The notes under the pieces: generated by a model
The model's input: the letters and a program-made list of their open reading frames with translations, nothing else
What the model was told of the DNA's origin: nothing
Databases searched by the model: none
Assembly: GCF_003061105.1 (NCBI RefSeq)
Contig: NZ_QAIQ01000007.1
Span: 1 to 37,591, forward strand
Source of the DNA: Arthrobacter sp. HMWF013
Lineage (GTDB): Bacteria > Actinomycetota > Actinomycetes > Actinomycetales > Micrococcaceae
DNA length: 37,591 bases
Direction of reading: 5' to 3'
Part shown: one piece after another, positions 26,971 through 37,591 of the stretch
How positions within the stretch are numbered: the stretch's first letter is position 1
How the letters are laid out: every line of letters begins with the position of its first letter
Position numbers and translations under genes: made by a program

Positions 26971-27849
26971 ATGAGCGATCGAATCGCGTTCCTTGGCTGT
27001 GGATCCATGAATGAAGCTATCCTCACAGGTCTTTTAAGAGCCGGAATGGCTCCGGCGAACTGTGTCGTGACTGTTCGGCGGGCTCACCGGGCGGTTGAAT
27101 TGGCTGCCCGATACCCCGGGGTAACGGCTATTGCCGGAGAGGAAGAACCAAGCAACAACCAGCAGGCGGCAAAAGGGGCTGCCCTCATCATTCTTGGAGT
27201 CAATCCGGCAGAGACCATCGATTTGGCCCGGGAAATTGCAAACTCGTTAGGGCCCGGCACTGTCGTGATCAGTATTGCCGCCGCCGTGACCCTAGCCGAG
27301 TTGCAGGCCGCTCTTCCCAAGGACCAGCCTGTGGTTCGAACTCTTCCTAATACACCCATCAAGCTGGGGCACGGCGTTATATCCCTTTCGCCAGGCAATG
27401 GTTGCAGCCCTGAGAACCTGAAGATGGTTAGAAGAATTTTCCAAGGTGCCAGCACAATTGTGGAGGTGCCGGAGGAGCAGATAGACACTGTCTCAGCGAT
27501 CAGCGGCTCAGGCCCGGCCTACGTTTATTATCTAGCCGAAGCAATGGCTGCTGCAGGCGTGGAACTTGGCTTGGCCCCTGAGCTCGCAGGTATCCTCGCC
27601 CGAGAAACAGTAGCGGGGGCGGGGCTTACGCTAACCGAGCCCGGCGCCAATGCATCAGCCATGCTGAGGGACATGGCCCGCCCTGAGAACATCACCGCGT
27701 GCGCCATTGCCGTCTTCGATCAAGAAGGCATTCCAGCCACCATTACCGAAGGTGCGCGCGCCGCCGTAGGACGCGCGGCCGCAATGACTGTGGAAATAGC
27801 TCAGCAAAAGCAACCGCCCTTGCAGGCAATCCCCCATCCATTGCAATAA
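26971..27849 (+). CDS. proC: Pyrroline-5-carboxylate reductase
   Basis: A 292-residue NAD(P)H-dependent reductase for the last step of proline synthesis. N-terminal Rossmann IAFLGCGSMNEAILTGLLRAG, the VRTLPNTPIKLGHGVI segment (phosphoserine-phosphatase-like PNTP motif of ProC), and the C-terminal signature AISGSGPAYVYYLAEAMAAAG are all present, plus GLTLTEPGANASAMLRDM with the usual helices. Slightly longer than the typical 265-280 because of an extra C-terminal tail. AAGAAGGA precedes ATG. Next to an amino-acid decarboxylase and HutD it may serve ornithine/proline/glutamate interconversion rather than being the main biosynthetic copy; this is inference. Confidence 0.9.
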   Translation: MSDRIAFLGCGSMNEAILTGLLRAGMAPANCVVTVRRAHRAVELAARYPGVTAIAGEEEPSNNQQAAKGAALIILGVNPAETIDLAREIANSLGPGTVVISIAAAVTLAELQAALPKDQPVVRTLPNTPIKLGHGVISLSPGNGCSPENLKMVRRIFQGASTIVEVPEEQIDTVSAISGSGPAYVYYLAEAMAAAGVELGLAPELAGILARETVAGAGLTLTEPGANASAMLRDMARPENITACAIAVFDQEGIPATITEGARAAVGRAAAMTVEIAQQKQPPLQAIPHPLQ

Positions 27850-28447: not shown

Positions 28448-28717
28448 ATGTCGCTTATCGGTATGGATACCGACGCGCTCTACGATCAAGCAAATAGGCT
28501 GCTCAAAATCGCGCACGACTTGAGGACTGCCCAAGCGGAACTCAACGCTGCCTCTGGTGCACTTGTGACAATTTGGGATGGTGATGGGGCGAAGACGCAT
28601 CGTACTGAACTTCTCGCAGAGGCGGGCAGGCTGGGGGGGACTGCCAAGGCTATTGAGTCCGCGGCCAGATCGATCCATCAAGCTGCAGATAGACAACGCA
28701 TGATCTCTTCCTGGTAG
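28448..28717 (+). CDS. WXG100-like small protein
   Basis: An 89-residue helical protein with a very good start (AAGGAGG, then ATG 28448). Helix 1 (residues 6-36: MDTDALYDQANRLLKIAHDL onward), a turn with Trp43-Asp44-Gly45 (W-x-G), and helix 2 (about 47-85) reproduce the hairpin of WXG100/ESAT-6-like proteins, substrates or partners of type VII secretion. The usual C-terminal YxxxD/E secretion signal is missing. It is followed 14 bases later by a gene whose ATPase domain is EccC-like, i.e. of the type VII motor family, which strengthens the assignment. Alternatives: any short helical-hairpin protein acting as a regulator of the ATPase. Confidence 0.7.
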   Translation: MSLIGMDTDALYDQANRLLKIAHDLRTAQAELNAASGALVTIWDGDGAKTHRTELLAEAGRLGGTAKAIESAARSIHQAADRQRMISSW

Positions 28718-28731
28718 GTGGGCAGGCAGTT

Positions 28732-30216
28732 ATGGCTGGGACTACACGGCGTGTTTTGACAGTATTTGTGGCATCTCCGGGAGATGTTAGCGAGGAGCGC
28801 CAGACGCTTGGTGCTGTCGCGGCGCGAATCAATCGTATGGCTGCGCGCGAATGGGGCTGGGAGATTGATATTCGCGGATGGGAGGACACCCTTCCTGGCT
28901 ACGCCCGTCCCCAATCACTCATCAATCCTGACGTCGAACAGTGCGACGTTTTCATCGGGTTACTTTGGAAGCGCTGGGGAACACCGTCCGGGAGCCATTC
29001 GTCGGGCTTTGAGGAGGAGTTCAGGATCGCTCAGAGCCGTCGCCTTCAGTCGGTCGAACCTGAAATCATGATGTACTTTCGCGACATCCCGGAGTCCGAA
29101 CGGGCGGACCCGGGGCCTCAGTTGGAGCGTGTCCTTTCTTTCCGCCAGGAGGTAATGGCGGCTAGGCAGCTCCTCTACAAGGCCTACGCAGACGTGGCGG
29201 ATTTTGAAGTCATGATTTTTGACCACCTCACCAAGCTCCTCGGGCGTCGGGCAATAGAGAGTACGGCCGATAAATCGACTGATTCCACGAAGCGTCATTC
29301 GACTGTCCTTGCACAATCTTTCGGCTCTATCCAACCCATGACCATGCTTGAGTTGGCCGGCGATCCACTAATGACTCCTGACCGCTTGCTTAGTCGCTGG
29401 CGACAGGCATCCGAACTCAGTCAGATTCCGCAGATGCCTTGCGCACTTGGACCACTCGGGCTTTACCGTTTTACGGTTGTCGACTTCAGGCACTCCGCAA
29501 CATTATTGGTCGGCACCACCGGGTCGGGAAAAACTGAGGCATTGATGGCAATAGCGGCTTCTACCGTTCTTTCCCTGCCACCACCTCTTGTTCGTGTTTC
29601 ATTCATCGATCTCAAGTACTCCAGCTATATTCAAGCTTTGGAGGCTGTCGGTGCTGATGGGATCCATCTGGACCTTGGAAACGAGCCAGATGGGCTTGAT
29701 GTGCTAATTGCTGAGATTCGTGCGCGGGAGCAGATCTTGGTCGAAGCGCACTGTCGAGATGCCCAGGAGTTTTGGTCGAAATTTCCCAACGATCGATACC
29801 GGCTTCCGGTATGGCTGATATGCATTGATGAGGTGCACAGCATCACGTTTGGGCAACGTGAGGGGCTGGCGAGGCTTCTTCAGACTGCTGCGCGGGCGCG
29901 TCCGCTTGGCATTCAGTACATTTTTGGAACGCAACGACTTGCGGGTATCGGAAACATGATCCGATCAGTTAGCTCTAGGCGAATCTGTCTCCGCACTTAC
30001 GACGCACTTGAAAGCCTCGACGTCGTGGGAGTTCCTGATGCTAGTTTGATTTCAAGAACGGATGCGGGAACTGCCGTGGTCCGTGATGACATGGACGGTG
30101 AGCCACTTCTGGTGCGGTTCGCGATGGTGGACGCCAGCCTCGATGAGAGCCTATTCGATGTCCTCCAGGCCGCCCGCAAAGGGTACGACGAGGTCATGGA
30201 TGCTTCTGTAACGTAA
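28732..30216 (+). CDS. DUF4062 domain fused to an EccC-like FtsK/SpoIIIE ATPase
   Basis: A 494-residue fusion. Residues 8-165: LTVFVASPGDVSEERQTL, ARINRMAAREWGWEIDIRGW, CDVFIGLLWKRWGTPSGS, GFEEEFRIA, a DUF4062-type Rossmann-like domain usually found at the N-terminus of STAND/NACHT proteins. Residues 190-465: one FtsK/SpoIIIE ATPase closest to the motor domains of EccC: Walker A GTTGSGKT (261-268), Walker B WLICIDE (Asp366-Glu367), GTQRL (399-403), RRICLRTYDALES and VVGVPDA, both hallmarks of EccC. No membrane segments, unlike EccC, which has two and several ATPase domains. Follows the WXG100-like gene by 14 bases, presumably co-transcribed. Function not known; a cytoplasmic ring-forming conflict ATPase is one reading. 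Confidence 0.82.
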   Translation: MAGTTRRVLTVFVASPGDVSEERQTLGAVAARINRMAAREWGWEIDIRGWEDTLPGYARPQSLINPDVEQCDVFIGLLWKRWGTPSGSHSSGFEEEFRIAQSRRLQSVEPEIMMYFRDIPESERADPGPQLERVLSFRQEVMAARQLLYKAYADVADFEVMIFDHLTKLLGRRAIESTADKSTDSTKRHSTVLAQSFGSIQPMTMLELAGDPLMTPDRLLSRWRQASELSQIPQMPCALGPLGLYRFTVVDFRHSATLLVGTTGSGKTEALMAIAASTVLSLPPPLVRVSFIDLKYSSYIQALEAVGADGIHLDLGNEPDGLDVLIAEIRAREQILVEAHCRDAQEFWSKFPNDRYRLPVWLICIDEVHSITFGQREGLARLLQTAARARPLGIQYIFGTQRLAGIGNMIRSVSSRRICLRTYDALESLDVVGVPDASLISRTDAGTAVVRDDMDGEPLLVRFAMVDASLDESLFDVLQAARKGYDEVMDASVT

Positions 30217-30249: not shown

Positions 30250-30440
30250 ATCCTGCGACTGCCCTGGAAGACACCGGCGCCAACGACGCCCAGATCCGAG
30301 GACGGCTCATTGCCGCGCGCAGCGTTGGCACCCACCCCAGCGCCGCCGTCACCACAGACAAGGGTGATACAAAAGCCCGAAAGTCCCGCACAGGCGCAGC
30401 TGTGGGCGCCGAACGAGGACGGGGCAGGTTGTCTCGCTAG
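30250..30440 (+). pseudogene. Probable 3' relic of an unknown gene
   Basis: A frame without a start codon, open from about 30235 to TAG at 30438-30440, with protein-like, high-GC codon use that differs from the surrounding island. The peptide includes ALEDTGANDAQIRGRLIAAR and ends in a basic tail. It resembles the disordered C-terminus of a larger protein, perhaps from a plasmid or mobile element. I do not know the parent gene. Confidence 0.35.
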
Positions 30441-30496
30441 ACAAGAGAGGACAAGTAGGGGGATGTCACTGCTGAGGTGAAACCCCTTCCTCTGAA

Positions 30497-31522: not shown

Positions 31523-31678
31523 CTGCACGCTCTATTTGACCACGAGCGAGGATTAGCCCCGGGAGGCCCGTCACTTAGGAGCCACGATTTCCCCCGTTTG
31601 TGCCGTTTGCTTAGGCGCTCACACGCCGTCACGTTGTCTATGCCGTGTCACCGCGGCTCTGTCGACGATGATCAAAGT

Positions 31679-34600
31679 ATGACCAGTCGCCTCGCGCTCG
31701 AAAAGCGAATACGTTATGAGCTCAGTACCCTGGCTGAGACCAACTCTCACCACGATTTTGAAGCCATCTGCCTTGGTCTGGCGCGGAAACGCATCGCGAC
31801 CAATCTTATGCCGGCCACTGGTCCAGTCAGTGCTGGAGGGGACCAAGGGCGGGACGCTGAAAGCTTCTGGAGCAATCTCCCCACCGAGGCCACAGCCCTC
31901 TCAACCTTTGCGTTAGGTGCAACCCAGGAGAACGTTGTCCTTGCCTGCACCATCCAGCAGGCGCACGTTCCGACCAAGATACGTGCAGATCTGGGTTCCA
32001 TTTGCACACAAGGGGAACGCGTGGACAGGGTTGTCTTCTTCACCCTGAGTCCCGTCCCGGTCGCGAAGCGTCATGAGCTGCAACGCCAGGCAAGAGACCG
32101 TCACGGTATCTCCTTGGATATTTGGGATGGGGTAGCCGTAGCAAGAGAGCTTTCAGAGCATGATCTGTACCACTTAGCCGTCGATTACCTTCACCTTCCC
32201 AGCGACCTTGCCCCTGAACGGCCGGTCCCCGAAAGTCCTAGACCGGATTGGTATGTGGATGCCTTATCTCGGTGGACCACCCGCCAAGACTCACCCTCCA
32301 CGATCGGTGATCTTATTGATCTAAGGGAAGGCCTAAGGCTCGCCAGTACGGATCCTCTGTTTGCTTCGGATCTTCCGAATTGGCTGACGATGGCTAAAAA
32401 ACTTCTTAGAAACGCCAACAGCGACGATGTCACCGCTCGAGCTCAATTCGAAATCGCGTGGGCGACGATGCGCGGTACCGAAACACTAATGCCGGCCGAT
32501 GACTTGGTTAGGGAATTCTTCAACCTCGTACCCGGGACGCTGGAGGACCCAGGGATCCTTCGCGACGCGACGATGCTCCTCGATCTCGGCTATGCAGCGA
32601 TGCTTCGACGAACAACGGGCATTGATCGATGCCAGCTAGAGACGTGGCATCAGGCGTTAGCAGACACAGTCGACGCGCTACTACTCGCAAGCGATTATCC
32701 CAATACGCGAGCCATGCTGCTTTCGCTCCAGGCCTACCTGGCGCTGCACCAAAGGTACCCAGCTGGAATACTCCCTGAGCTCGGGGAAGTGCCAACCATA
32801 TCCGACACGCTTGCGGCCCTTCGCGACAAAACGTTTAGCGGCACACATCAGGGAGCGCGAGGGATCGAGTTGATGGATGTCGACAAGGGTATGGAGGCGC
32901 TGGGAGAACTCATTGAACTGCTTCCCAAAGCGCCCCTTTTCCCTGTCCGCGATACTGCAGACATTTTTGGCCTGTACACGTCTCAACTGGTGGACCACCC
33001 GCTTTATGAGAAAGTACGCGACGGCCTGGACGATGCCTTGGAACGAATTGAAGGTGAATCCGGCCGCGGGAGTCGAGCCCTTAACCGCGCGCTTCGACTC
33101 ATCGAAGTAGATCGACTACTGGATGCGCTTCATGAACTGCATGCCGCAAAAATCAATTGGTGGCATGGCGACACCCTCGAGGGCAGCATCGAAATGTTCA
33201 TGCTGATCTCGAGAATCTATTACCAATTGAATCTTCCACACGCGGGAAAACAGTACGCTTTAGCGGCAATGACGGCAGCCCAGAATGCCAACGACCCGTC
33301 CTTGAAACATTTTGTGACTCACGGTCTTATGGTCGCCGCTACCTGTGACCATCACGCCGGCCAGTCCCTTACCGCCACTCATTCCTTCAATCTGGCGCTG
33401 CTGGCTCAAAGCCACTTTGGCGATGGCTCTGCACGCTTCGAACTCCATGCGGCTATGACTAATATGCTGCAGGATCAGTGCCACATATTCCGAGCAGCGC
33501 AGTCAGTCCGGCCAGACCTTGTTCCACTCCTAACGTCATTACTCGATTCCACCACTGTCATGGACGCCATCACGGCGATGCTCGATGGTGTCCGCGGAAT
33601 TGCGCCAATGACAGAGCCGGAGATCGCGGCTGCAACGGATCGGTCCGGAATGGGGAGACTATTCAGCGACATTGGACCGACCCGCTACTACCGGTGGGCT
33701 GCCCTGGGACTTACGTGGCAGGTGCAATGTAAGAACGAACGCCAGGCAGTACTAGCAACGGAGCGCTTCATAGCCACAACTCAGATTGTCCTTACTGAGT
33801 TTGCCCGGCACGATGCACATCTCCTACTGGAAGCTTTGCGCATTGAAGTGAGTGTCGATGCACGCAACGGACAAGGGGGTGCCGGGTGGGTTGACTGGAT
33901 AGCGGATCAGCAGGGTGGGCATTGGAACCTTCACTTAACTCCCGGAGATAGTGCTGACCTTGAAGCCTTGCAGCTCGAATCACTCGGTGCAGCCATGCAC
34001 TTCCTGGCTTCTCAGTCTTTACTCAACCAAGGTGACTTCAGCAGCATAATGGACGCCTCGTTTGCAGGTGGCCTGTGGCACAAATCGTCAATTGTGCGGT
34101 CATACGACGAGCTCGCGGATCTAGCAGAAGCTTCAACCTACGCTGAGTTTTCCCAGCGTAGAGAAGTCTTCGTGGGCTGGATCCATCCATCGGAAATTCG
34201 TAACCCCAGCGCTGACATGCAAAAACGCCAAGGATTGGCCTCCTCCTACGAGGCAAACAGGAACAAGATCCTGGAGAACATCGCCTATCGGTACGCTACG
34301 CTTCCTGCGGTGATTGGCCCTGCGCTCGTGCTTCTCCATCAGGATGCTCGCTTTAGGAGTACTGTTGAGCGACTCCGCCAGGACGGGTGGCTTGACTGGC
34401 ATCTGCTTCAAGCTATCGCCAACATTGTGGTCAACGATCGCGCGGAGACACGTGGTATCCGGCTCAGTAGAAACATGACTGACAACGAAAAGCAGGGCTT
34501 CATCAACCTCATTCATGAGCCAGCCCGGACCAGTGACCCGGTACTTCCCACGACAGCATTCACCGAAGACAGGCTCCGGCTCCATTTGTCGTCCGCAGCG

Positions 34601-34747
34601 GTGTCGGGACTAACGACATTGGGCCTTACCCTTCACAAAAAGGCTGTTCCCACCGAACCAATCCTGAATTTCCTGGGAGAAAGATACCGCTACTGGGTCG
34701 ACGATTCTCCCCATCAGCCCTACTTTCCGGGTACATCCGCGTCCTAA
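31679..34747 (+). CDS. Large protein: restriction-endonuclease-fold N-terminus and helical-repeat body
   Basis: A 1022-residue cytoplasmic protein. The first 175 residues look like a PD-(D/E)xK nuclease-fold domain: a helix with Glu28 (HDFEAICLGLARKRIA), then GPVSAGGDQGRDAESF (Asp55, Asp59) and the strand NVVLACTIQQ with Gln93 in place of the usual E/QxK, followed by RVVFFTLSPVPVAKRHELQ and LDIWDGVAVARELSEHDLYH. The remaining 850 residues are helical repeats (TPR/HEAT-like) with no second catalytic motif visible. Start chosen at ATG 31679, where the domain begins; the ribosome site is weak. Sensor-plus-nuclease architecture is common in defence genes, so that is a plausible role, but the catalytic Lys is not obvious and the domain may be inactive. 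Confidence 0.72.
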   Translation: MTSRLALEKRIRYELSTLAETNSHHDFEAICLGLARKRIATNLMPATGPVSAGGDQGRDAESFWSNLPTEATALSTFALGATQENVVLACTIQQAHVPTKIRADLGSICTQGERVDRVVFFTLSPVPVAKRHELQRQARDRHGISLDIWDGVAVARELSEHDLYHLAVDYLHLPSDLAPERPVPESPRPDWYVDALSRWTTRQDSPSTIGDLIDLREGLRLASTDPLFASDLPNWLTMAKKLLRNANSDDVTARAQFEIAWATMRGTETLMPADDLVREFFNLVPGTLEDPGILRDATMLLDLGYAAMLRRTTGIDRCQLETWHQALADTVDALLLASDYPNTRAMLLSLQAYLALHQRYPAGILPELGEVPTISDTLAALRDKTFSGTHQGARGIELMDVDKGMEALGELIELLPKAPLFPVRDTADIFGLYTSQLVDHPLYEKVRDGLDDALERIEGESGRGSRALNRALRLIEVDRLLDALHELHAAKINWWHGDTLEGSIEMFMLISRIYYQLNLPHAGKQYALAAMTAAQNANDPSLKHFVTHGLMVAATCDHHAGQSLTATHSFNLALLAQSHFGDGSARFELHAAMTNMLQDQCHIFRAAQSVRPDLVPLLTSLLDSTTVMDAITAMLDGVRGIAPMTEPEIAAATDRSGMGRLFSDIGPTRYYRWAALGLTWQVQCKNERQAVLATERFIATTQIVLTEFARHDAHLLLEALRIEVSVDARNGQGGAGWVDWIADQQGGHWNLHLTPGDSADLEALQLESLGAAMHFLASQSLLNQGDFSSIMDASFAGGLWHKSSIVRSYDELADLAEASTYAEFSQRREVFVGWIHPSEIRNPSADMQKRQGLASSYEANRNKILENIAYRYATLPAVIGPALVLLHQDARFRSTVERLRQDGWLDWHLLQAIANIVVNDRAETRGIRLSRNMTDNEKQGFINLIHEPARTSDPVLPTTAFTEDRLRLHLSSAAVSGLTTLGLTLHKKAVPTEPILNFLGERYRYWVDDSPHQPYFPGTSAS

Positions 34748-36754: not shown

Positions 36755-37591
36755 CTACGGGCCCTCGACTGGTTCTTTCTTCGCGCCTTTCGCGTCGTCC
36801 AACCTTTTGAGTAGTTCTCTTGCCTCGGGGGAGGGCGATGAAGACGATAGAAGCCGCTCGCCCAGCCCACGTGTCTCAGGGGCAATCACCGAGCCGATTC
36901 TCGTTTCTTCGAGTGCCCACAGGAGGGCGGCCGCAGCGGCATCCGCCCGTCTAGACGATTTCAAAAGCCCCTCAACGGCCTTCCGATACGACTCGCGCCC
37001 AGCTGCTTCGTTACCTTCACGGAACGCAATGAGCCCCCGTGTAGCGAGAAAGACAGGGTAGTCGTCATCATCCGAACCGGGAAGGTGAACTAGATGAAAT
37101 CGTGCGTCCTCCGTTCGACCTAGGTTGGCTAAGGCAAAGGCGGCATTGTTATGGAGCATCGGGTCGGTGGGATGAGTCGAGAGCCCAAGGTCAGCTATGG
37201 ACAGCGCCCCCTCATAGTCCTGCGCGCCCAAGGATGCATAATAGGAGCCATACATTGCGGCCCGAAGGTCGAAAGGCTGATCTAGCTGCCACTTTTGGCT
37301 TTCGTATGCGGCTTCCTTCCAGCGACCATTCTGAGCCCAAGTGATGGCACGAGCCTCATAACCCCTGTCAACGGTAAGAGCGTCGGAAGTCAGTTGTAAC
37401 GATTTGTTCTCTGAGGCCCAGGCGGCTTGGGCGACTGCGTTCTCGTTCGGTTCGAGGAGCGCTTGAGCAAAGAACTTCTGGGCCTTGCGATCACTCCCGC
37501 GATGTAATTCTCCAGTCGCCACCTCGCTTGCCAATTCACTCAGTGCGTGGGGGCTGAATTGTTGGCTGACGAGTAGCTCGCGAGCTACTCG
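36755..37591 (-). CDS. TPR-repeat protein (5' end beyond the window)
   Basis: Open from the window edge to the stop at 36755, 278 codons seen, no start within the window that is needed: the frame and the repeat pattern continue to 37591 (ARELLVSQQFSPHALSELAS precedes the first in-window TTG). Consecutive 34-residue helical hairpins are visible (AQKFFAQALLEPNENAVAQA; ARAITWAQNGRWKEAAYESQ; YEGALSIADLGLSTHPTDPM; NNAAFALANLGRTEDARFHL), typical tetratricopeptide repeats for protein binding. The beginning may carry an effector domain, as in the nuclease-like gene at 31679; that cannot be judged here. Convergent with the small gene at 36403. Confidence 0.75.
   Translation of the reverse strand, partial: RVARELLVSQQFSPHALSELASEVATGELHRGSDRKAQKFFAQALLEPNENAVAQAAWASENKSLQLTSDALTVDRGYEARAITWAQNGRWKEAAYESQKWQLDQPFDLRAAMYGSYYASLGAQDYEGALSIADLGLSTHPTDPMLHNNAAFALANLGRTEDARFHLVHLPGSDDDDYPVFLATRGLIAFREGNEAAGRESYRKAVEGLLKSSRRADAAAAALLWALEETRIGSVIAPETRGLGERLLSSSSPSPEARELLKRLDDAKGAKKEPVEGP

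Follow-up and report, generated by a model that had tools for sequence, protein, structure and literature searches.

The window analysed here, a stretch of 37,591 nucleotides from Arthrobacter sp. HMWF013 (contig NZ_QAIQ01000007.1 of assembly GCF_003061105.1, forward strand), contains a tight gene pair in which a small WXG-type protein (P0001) precedes a fusion of a DUF4062 domain with a single ATPase domain (P0002), the latter resembling domain 1 (D1) of EccC/EssC, the ATPase of type VII secretion systems (T7SS). The reading that we favour, to which we assign a probability of roughly 45%, is that of a horizontally acquired module of two genes that acts inside the cell by abortive infection, an NADase in which a T7SS-type D1 switch and a WXG regulator have taken the place of the usual sensor. 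It is backed by the domains and their motifs, the predicted DUF4062 fold, the predicted hairpin of P0001, the linkage of the genes and a foreign neighbourhood. Both open reading frames (ORFs) of the original prediction are present at the positions given there, and its interpretation is partly supported overall. The two genes are located on the same strand; the ATG of P0001 lies 4 nucleotides downstream of the motif AAGGAGG, the ATG of P0002 follows the P0001 stop codon after 14 nucleotides, and the GC content of P0002 by codon position (0.64/0.46/0.58) is of the coding type. A Kyte-Doolittle scan found no window of 19 residues reaching at least 1.6 in either protein, in agreement with the claim that the fusion is devoid of membrane helices, and the motifs GTTGSGKT, WLICIDE, RRICLRT and VVGVPDA were all recovered from P0002.

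Residues 11-100 of P0002 match DUF4062 (PF13271) with an E-value of 7.2e-8 and 33.0 bits versus a Pfam gathering score of 24.7, and the PADLOC candidate family PDC-S60, a model of 906 positions, matches the N-terminal 170 residues (2e-22). According to a preprint of May 2026 (PMC13174449), DUF4062 represents a family of TIR-like NADases, the bacterial members of which (“Swarozyc”) mediate Glu-dependent, NAD-depleting abortive infection and are in some cases anti-phage. The enzymes are reported to be active when oligomerised, and TEP1 to be active in vaults (PMC13174449). In the structure model of P0002, calculated with a 68-row alignment, the first 185 residues have a predicted local distance difference test score (pLDDT) of about 95 except for dips, and the DUF4062 domain is followed by a 42-residue helix (155-196). 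The comparison of this model with PDB chains by VIA-align is headed by DNPH1 (Z 13.3, root-mean-square deviation [rmsd] 2.6, 130 residues), with RPPT-TIR (Z 12.8, rmsd 3.4, 139 residues), the SPARTA TIR (Z 12.4), AbTir (12.3) and RUN1-TIR (11.9) below it; the top seven rows cover residues ~7-175 with 125-139 aligned positions and an rmsd of 2.6-3.4, and as rows differing by at most 1 in Z count as tied, TIR and NDT-like folds are not rankable here. The same two kin were found for DUF4062 in PMC13174449. The proposed “Rossmann-like effector” is supported and can now be assigned to the TIR/NDT-like fold seen in the reported family of NADases. A search of the PDB sequences with the DUF4062 profile gave three matches (E 0.37-0.45), which we took as chance.

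The two glutamates E95 and E96 of the SGxxEE motif (SGFEEEF in P0002) are invariant in A1, a 5-row DUF4062 alignment that was built before the genome scan with the SGxxEE pattern, and from its position and by analogy with E97 of KpSwz we infer that E96 is the catalytic residue. The occurrence of the motif in 86/87 ORFs is not independent evidence, because the genome scan used SGxxEE as its pattern. Ranked by E-value, the first DUF4062 relative stems from a Nitrospinae metagenome-assembled genome (51% identical), followed by those of a Nitrospirota metagenome-assembled genome and of Cellulomonas (48% each), and all five relatives tested match PDC-S60 inside their first 150-212 residues. The view that DUF4062 is otherwise known from STAND/NACHT proteins proved too narrow: among four relatives searched with Pfam none had a NACHT, STAND or FtsK match, and two had HEAT-like matches under the cut-off. 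On plasmids of Calothrix and Nostoc a DUF4062 gene is located directly after an integrase gene (L032 2800-5425; L033 2974-5440).

The C-terminal part of P0002 carries an FtsK_SpoIIIE domain at residues 230-364 (E = 8.2e-10, 38.9 bits), over the curated Pfam cut-off, and the NCBIfam model EccCa aligns to residues 258-455 (1.4e-17, 63.7 bits) without reaching its whole-protein cut-off of 509.15. Both results corroborate the fusion of DUF4062 with one EccC-type domain; D2 and D3 are absent, no hydrophobic window is present, and as a whole protein P0002 falls outside EccC/EssC. A tblastn search with residues 190-494 against 21 loci with EccC-like or FtsK-like proteins, several of which contain only part of the respective gene, returned one best region per locus, which in each case is read as the putative D1 of EccC, and a clear second match of the C-terminal part, to D2, in 1/21 loci (6e-5). 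In alignment A2 the P0002 row is 24-32% identical to the nine other rows and has the leading helix before Walker A in common with them, and residues K267, D293, D366, E367, R390 and Q401 are retained.

The conspicuous deviation is residue 320, which is Asp in P0002 and Arg in all nine other rows of A2. The corresponding column holds Arg in 45/45 close D1-like rows, defined by an i-E of at most 1e-50 (37 distinct segments, since eight genes sit under two locus identifiers; P0002 itself scores 1.9e-34 in this search and is weaker than the cut), and in 68/147 aligned rows of all kinds in a wider mixed set that includes P0002. It lines up with the corresponding Arg of YukB, and this column is taken to be the probable equivalent of R734, which has been proposed as the D1 arginine finger of Staphylococcus aureus EssC (PMC9436818). 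Two residues are missing directly before D320 in the alignment, which may locally be slightly off, and the nearest other Arg, R330, is located in the next helix. As judged from the alignment, the loss of the finger speaks more for a switch that assembles in a nucleotide-dependent manner than for a motor that translocates, and with Walker A and B kept the simplest scheme would be ATP-dependent assembly. The earlier notion of a ring-forming motor is weakened accordingly by Asp320. A motor in the style of SIR2-HerA or DUF4297-HerA that is driven by ATP, translocates DNA or protein and thereby activates the fused effector has a domain of the FtsK/HerA superfamily with intact Walker A and B motifs on its side, as well as the precedent of Nezha and DUF4297-HerA, in both of which an effector is coupled with an ATPase (PMC11559045, PMC11291478). 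We regard it as unlikely, because P0002 has Asp in place of the proposed finger that all 45 close D1 rows possess, the effector is fused and not separate, and the PADLOC HerA model matches at just 0.028 (21 residues, 11.2 bits), which leaves the supposed kinship with HerA unsupported. The PADLOC model of mad8 matches residues 255-466 (8.3e-13, 46.5 bits; EccCa is higher with 63.7), indicating that defence systems, too, make use of FtsK-like ATPases of such a type. SspH also matches the ATPase region (1.2e-5). A STAND or other AAA identity of this domain was set aside, as the respective models were far weaker than FtsK.

P0001 was modelled from its single sequence as the expected helical hairpin, with helices at residues 3-42 and 46-88, W43-D44-G45 at the turn and a pLDDT of 90. 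The first 36 rows of its Foldseek list are all Esx/WXG100 chains (TM 0.60-0.84, E 0.04-0.3). In VIA-align an ESCRT-III chain scores best (11.8), the best WXG100 row reaches 10.2 and other hairpins are equal or higher, so the fold alone is no proof of kinship with WXG100. The profile matches anticipated by the original prediction were obtained for DUF4062 and FtsK_SpoIIIE above the Pfam cut-offs, whereas the WXG100 match of P0001 remained below: Pfam gives E = 0.0021 and 18.7 bits versus a cut-off of 27.3, and TIGR03930 gives 4.2e-5 and 23.7 bits versus 44.85. A Streptomyces atratus protein that is annotated as WXG100 and encoded beside an EccC-like gene is likewise under the Pfam cut-off (24.7 bits). 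Taking the W-x-G turn, the weak hidden Markov model (HMM) matches and the EccC-like neighbour together, we classify P0001 as WXG-type with moderate confidence. A sequence scan of P0001 found no YxxxD/E motif, consistent with the predicted lack of a secretion signal. This motif is not carried by every WXG100 protein. No match of P0001 was detected by phmmer (E <= 10) among the ORFs of 60-600 amino acids in six WXG100/WXG-like loci, and a search of the plasmids with P0001 gave no match either.

From these features we infer the NADase activity, the contact between P0001 and D1, the trigger and the defence role of the pair. The N-terminal DUF4062 domain of P0002 would be a TIR-like NAD(P) glycohydrolase that is off at rest, while the single, ATP-binding D1 module would take the place of the sensor part of other DUF4062 proteins. 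P0001 would partner D1 either as a clamp or as a ligand in the D1 pocket, and both would govern the oligomerisation of P0002. In EccC/EssC the pockets of D1 and D2 hold the interdomain linker, which is reported to auto-inhibit the enzyme (PMC6954902). As P0002 retains D1 but neither the linker nor D2, its pocket would be open to its own C-terminal helix or to P0001, which could thus occupy the place that the D1-D2 linker fills in a true EccC. P0001 and ATP would keep the TIR-like domains either separate or joined until a phage cue shifts the state; the domains would then assemble and deplete NAD, bringing the infected cell to a halt. We are more hesitant about one part of the scheme, namely that sensing and assembly of a TIR-like NADase have been taken over by a T7SS ATPase module and a WXG100 hairpin, with the WXG protein staying inside the cell as a regulator; this is a tentative proposal.

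Several observations weigh against the abortive-infection reading. The fusion and the pair are known from one copy, and neither is backed by conservation. The ATPase part of P0002 was modelled poorly (pLDDT mostly <55), and the Foldseek list of the P0002 model is mixed, with E <= 0.001 in three rows only, one of them a TIR (7xoz), followed by rows that include flavodoxin-like as well as Ras-like chains. The human proteins NWD1, NWD2 and NPHP3 are described as carrying DUF4062 with no NADase activity seen (PMC13174449), so that the domain need not be active in P0002. The genome-wide WXG100 search (E <= 0.01) found four other places and not P0001, and the position of P0001 under the WXG100 cut-offs weighs on the WXG pairing. 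In published work the recognition of WXG substrates by EccC is attributed to D3 and not D1 (PMC6954902), and it is isolated D2 of EssC that is reported to bind them (PMC9436818), which makes the contact between P0001 and D1 a guess. Finally, none of the established defence systems was found in complete form next to the pair.

The same layout could be that of a toxin-antitoxin style module, in which P0001 inhibits a constitutively toxic DUF4062-D1 enzyme and defence sets in when P0001 is lost. The small gene comes first in a tight operon and has a strong ribosome-binding site, the second gene is effector-like, and the flank is plasmid-derived. This arrangement is nonetheless rather improbable, given that the DUF4062 protein KpSwz is described as autoinhibited without any partner and as requiring the phage portal for its activity (PMC13174449).

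A second DUF4062-EccC fusion was found in none of the genome samples, plasmids, phages and DUF4062 scans, the order, phylum, genus and family samples being overlapping. Full-length P0002 matched 2/396 genomes of the order sample (its own and G568, the latter with DUF4062 only), 3/396 of the phylum sample (its own and two with EccC only) and, at 1e-18, 125/198 of the genus sample including its own, where all other listed matches start at query residue 173 or beyond. Its N-terminal part matched 2/395 genomes of the family sample (its own and G182, with a different C-terminus) and 1/206 of the genus sample. Matches were further obtained in 48 plasmid and six phage records, none at 80% coverage. 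Single-protein pattern scans for the fusion yielded nothing in viral contigs and 38 stretches in genome contigs, none of which was confirmed. The scan with the DUF4062 alignment returned 56 stretches from 4 loci in viral contigs (IMG/VR) and 176 stretches with 140 relatives in genome contigs. The best 80 of these 140, the four viral loci, L012 and L013 constitute a set of 86 loci, two of which (L013 and L069) look like one gene. An EccC-type ATPase is present in 0/86 of them: phmmer gave no match with P0002 residues 200-494 (E <= 0.01) or with P0001 (E <= 1). One weak match of the EccC-D1 HMM in this set (0.0011) was discarded, as the sequence reads as an ABC transporter. A search for a stand-alone D1 with A2 matched 287/296 genomes of the class sample. 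Among the matches listed, frames shorter than 600 amino acids were the own gene and one of 398 amino acids in G511, which we rejected as a frameshift-broken EccC-like gene. That gene is split into three frames (L219 3716-6559).

Such a singleton might also be an evolutionary leftover, in which DUF4062 and a piece of EccC were joined by chance and without function while a plasmid remnant decayed, as suggested by the single occurrence in the collections searched, the lost arginine finger and the truncated plasmid gene next to the pair. This explanation has little going for it in our view: both ORFs are intact, with codon-position GC of the coding type in P0002 and a proper ribosome-binding site for P0001, the Glu motif and the Walker residues are kept, and the domain borders fit an entire D1 together with the helix that precedes it. 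The features of the pair are compiled in Table 1.

Table 1. Coordinates of the gene pair, its functional motifs and the adjoining plasmid remnant within the window
Feature	Position	Strand	Basis
P0001, 89-amino-acid WXG-type helical hairpin	28448..28717	+	ORF, HMM, structure model
P0002, 494-amino-acid DUF4062 - EccC-D1 fusion	28732..30216	+	ORF, HMM
AAGGAGG ribosome-binding site of the P0001 gene	28437..28443	+	sequence
WDG turn of P0001, residues 43-45	28574-28582	+	structure model
DUF4062 (TIR/NDT-like) domain plus subsequent long helix, P0002 residues 1-199	28732..29328	+	
E95-E96 in SGFEEEF of P0002	29014..29019	+	invariant in A1; E96 putatively catalytic
Single EccC/EssC domain-1-like ATPase plus N-terminal helix, P0002 residues 205-472	29344..30147	+	
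Walker A GTTGSGKT (K267) of P0002	29512..29535	+	sequence, alignment
D320 of P0002, column with Arg in EccC-D1 (proposed arginine finger)	29689..29691	+	alignment
Walker B D366-E367 of P0002	29827..29832	+	sequence, alignment
Remnant, 3' end of an Arthrobacter-group conjugative-plasmid gene; flank, outside the system	30262..30448	+	

The neighbourhood of the pair has a low GC content at third codon positions (GC3), with values of 0.56-0.60 across the seven genes measured from a second proC onward versus 0.67-0.74 in seven genes to their left. This proC (26971-27849, +) is a diverged copy with a low GC3, 63% identical to the one on contig C416, and hence provides no synteny anchor for an empty-site test. 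The remnant, ~45 bp downstream of P0002, is 71-78% identical to Arthrobacter-group plasmids (ten rows shown) and matches 19 plasmid records, 18 of which are typed conjugative; in two inspected plasmids it corresponds to the 3' end of a gene after mobC and the relaxase gene. Further to the right follow a 343-amino-acid protein with membrane-type stretches and a gene of 1049 codons (31598-34747, +) with no Pfam family above the cut-off, relatives of which (43% identical) reside on plasmids of Mycobacterium gordonae and Streptomyces laculatispora. Its N-terminal GGDQGRDAE motif is, we presume, reminiscent of restriction-type nucleases. A membrane protein gene separates it from a gene for a TPR protein (36755-37591, -) that is cut by the contig end and matches PADLOC PDC-M71B at 3.7e-50; located 6.5 kb from the pair, this gene is a further putative defence candidate. 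On the left side, the 17 scanned proteins have mostly metabolic or regulatory roles and include no T7SS family, and no VWA match was found among the window proteins scanned. The right part of the window looks foreign and derives partly from plasmids. With one or more additional defence candidates, it falls short of a proven defence island.

The statement that T7SS genes are missing nearby is supported for the window proteins scanned, with no T7SS component (EccB, EccD, EccE or MycP included) detected by Pfam among 24 others up to the contig end at 37591, and does not extend to other contigs. EccC-like genes are present on C592 and C613 of the same genome, and four WXG100 matches, two of them at or over the cut-off, on four other contigs. 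EccC-like genes are also common in the genus (the 125/198 genomes above), mostly as frames of ~1,340-1,590 codons, so that the D1 part could readily have come from the host or from a plasmid. On a Streptomyces atratus plasmid (L007) a WXG100 gene lies directly upstream of an EccC-like gene, in the gene order shared by P0001 and P0002, together with a gene for a putative T7SS-secreted protein. An EccC-like gene is located near an RHS gene on a plasmid of Rothia terrae (L008). Both are compact toxin-linked EccC loci. The genome search for EccD was empty, and its control likewise matched nowhere. The pair itself is likely not a secretion system. The least probable alternative, a secretion-linked pair with P0001 as substrate or chaperone of a host T7SS-like EccC and P0002 as accessory or immunity-type ATPase, could invoke these EccC-like and WXG100 genes of the host and the two plasmid loci, but it is at odds with the missing YxxxD/E tail of P0001, the missing membrane helix of P0002, the lack of P0001 matches in the ORFs of the six WXG100/WXG-like loci and, with the caveat of its silent control, the empty EccD search.

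The literature searched, supplements aside, yielded neither a fusion of DUF4062 with EccC nor an NADase under WXG control, and the main text of PMC13174449 mentions none of FtsK, WXG and HerA. P0002 is a member of the DUF4062 family; by its auxiliary domain it is not a Swarozyc, and it is not an EccC. Judged by its sequence, it would represent a new architecture within the DUF4062 TIR-like proteins, a singleton with a predicted function. The family of DUF4062 NADases was reported just in 2026, and infection sensing has been worked out for one bacterial architecture, by portal binding (PMC13174449). If our reading is true, secretion-type ATPases are usable as immune switches, a WXG100-type protein gains an intracellular role, and a small two-gene system becomes available for the study of TIR-like NADase switching.

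Compared with known systems, P0002 shares with Swarozyc (KpSwz, TEP1; PMC13174449) the DUF4062 domain, the fold class, the Glu motif and a mobile or defence-like context, and its helix 155-196 is reminiscent of the helical stalk of KpSwz, a likeness by description and not by structures. Swarozyc is described with a C-terminal auxiliary domain of the helix-turn-helix/winged type, through which the portal of the phage is bound, whereas P0002 has an EccC D1 ATPase in this place and a WXG partner gene, and its NADase activity is predicted. The likeness to PDC-S60 comprises the N-terminal 170 residues and stops at the end of the DUF4062 domain, and that to mad8 of the MADS defence system is restricted to the ATPase region and does not include DUF4062. 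With EccC/EssC the pair has the D1 sequence, the leading helix, Walker A and B and a WXG-type gene directly upstream in common, but those proteins possess D0-D3, a membrane part and the D1-D2 linker, while P0002 has one domain with D320, fused to DUF4062. Type III-A CoCoNuT (PMC11090510) likewise brings together WXG100 and an EssC-like ATPase that is soluble, in a locus predicted to serve defence; it is described as having three ATPase domains with an active D2, an N-terminal coiled coil, two WXG100 proteins and nuclease and VWA genes, compared with one WXG gene and one D1 on a TIR-like domain here. SIR2-HerA (Nezha) and DUF4297-HerA, too, couple an effector to an ATPase of the FtsK/HerA superfamily, with NAD loss in Nezha, but they are reported as separate proteins with HerA proper and a SIR2 or nuclease effector, which distinguishes them from P0002. 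P0002 perhaps acts like other NAD-depleting abortive-infection systems.

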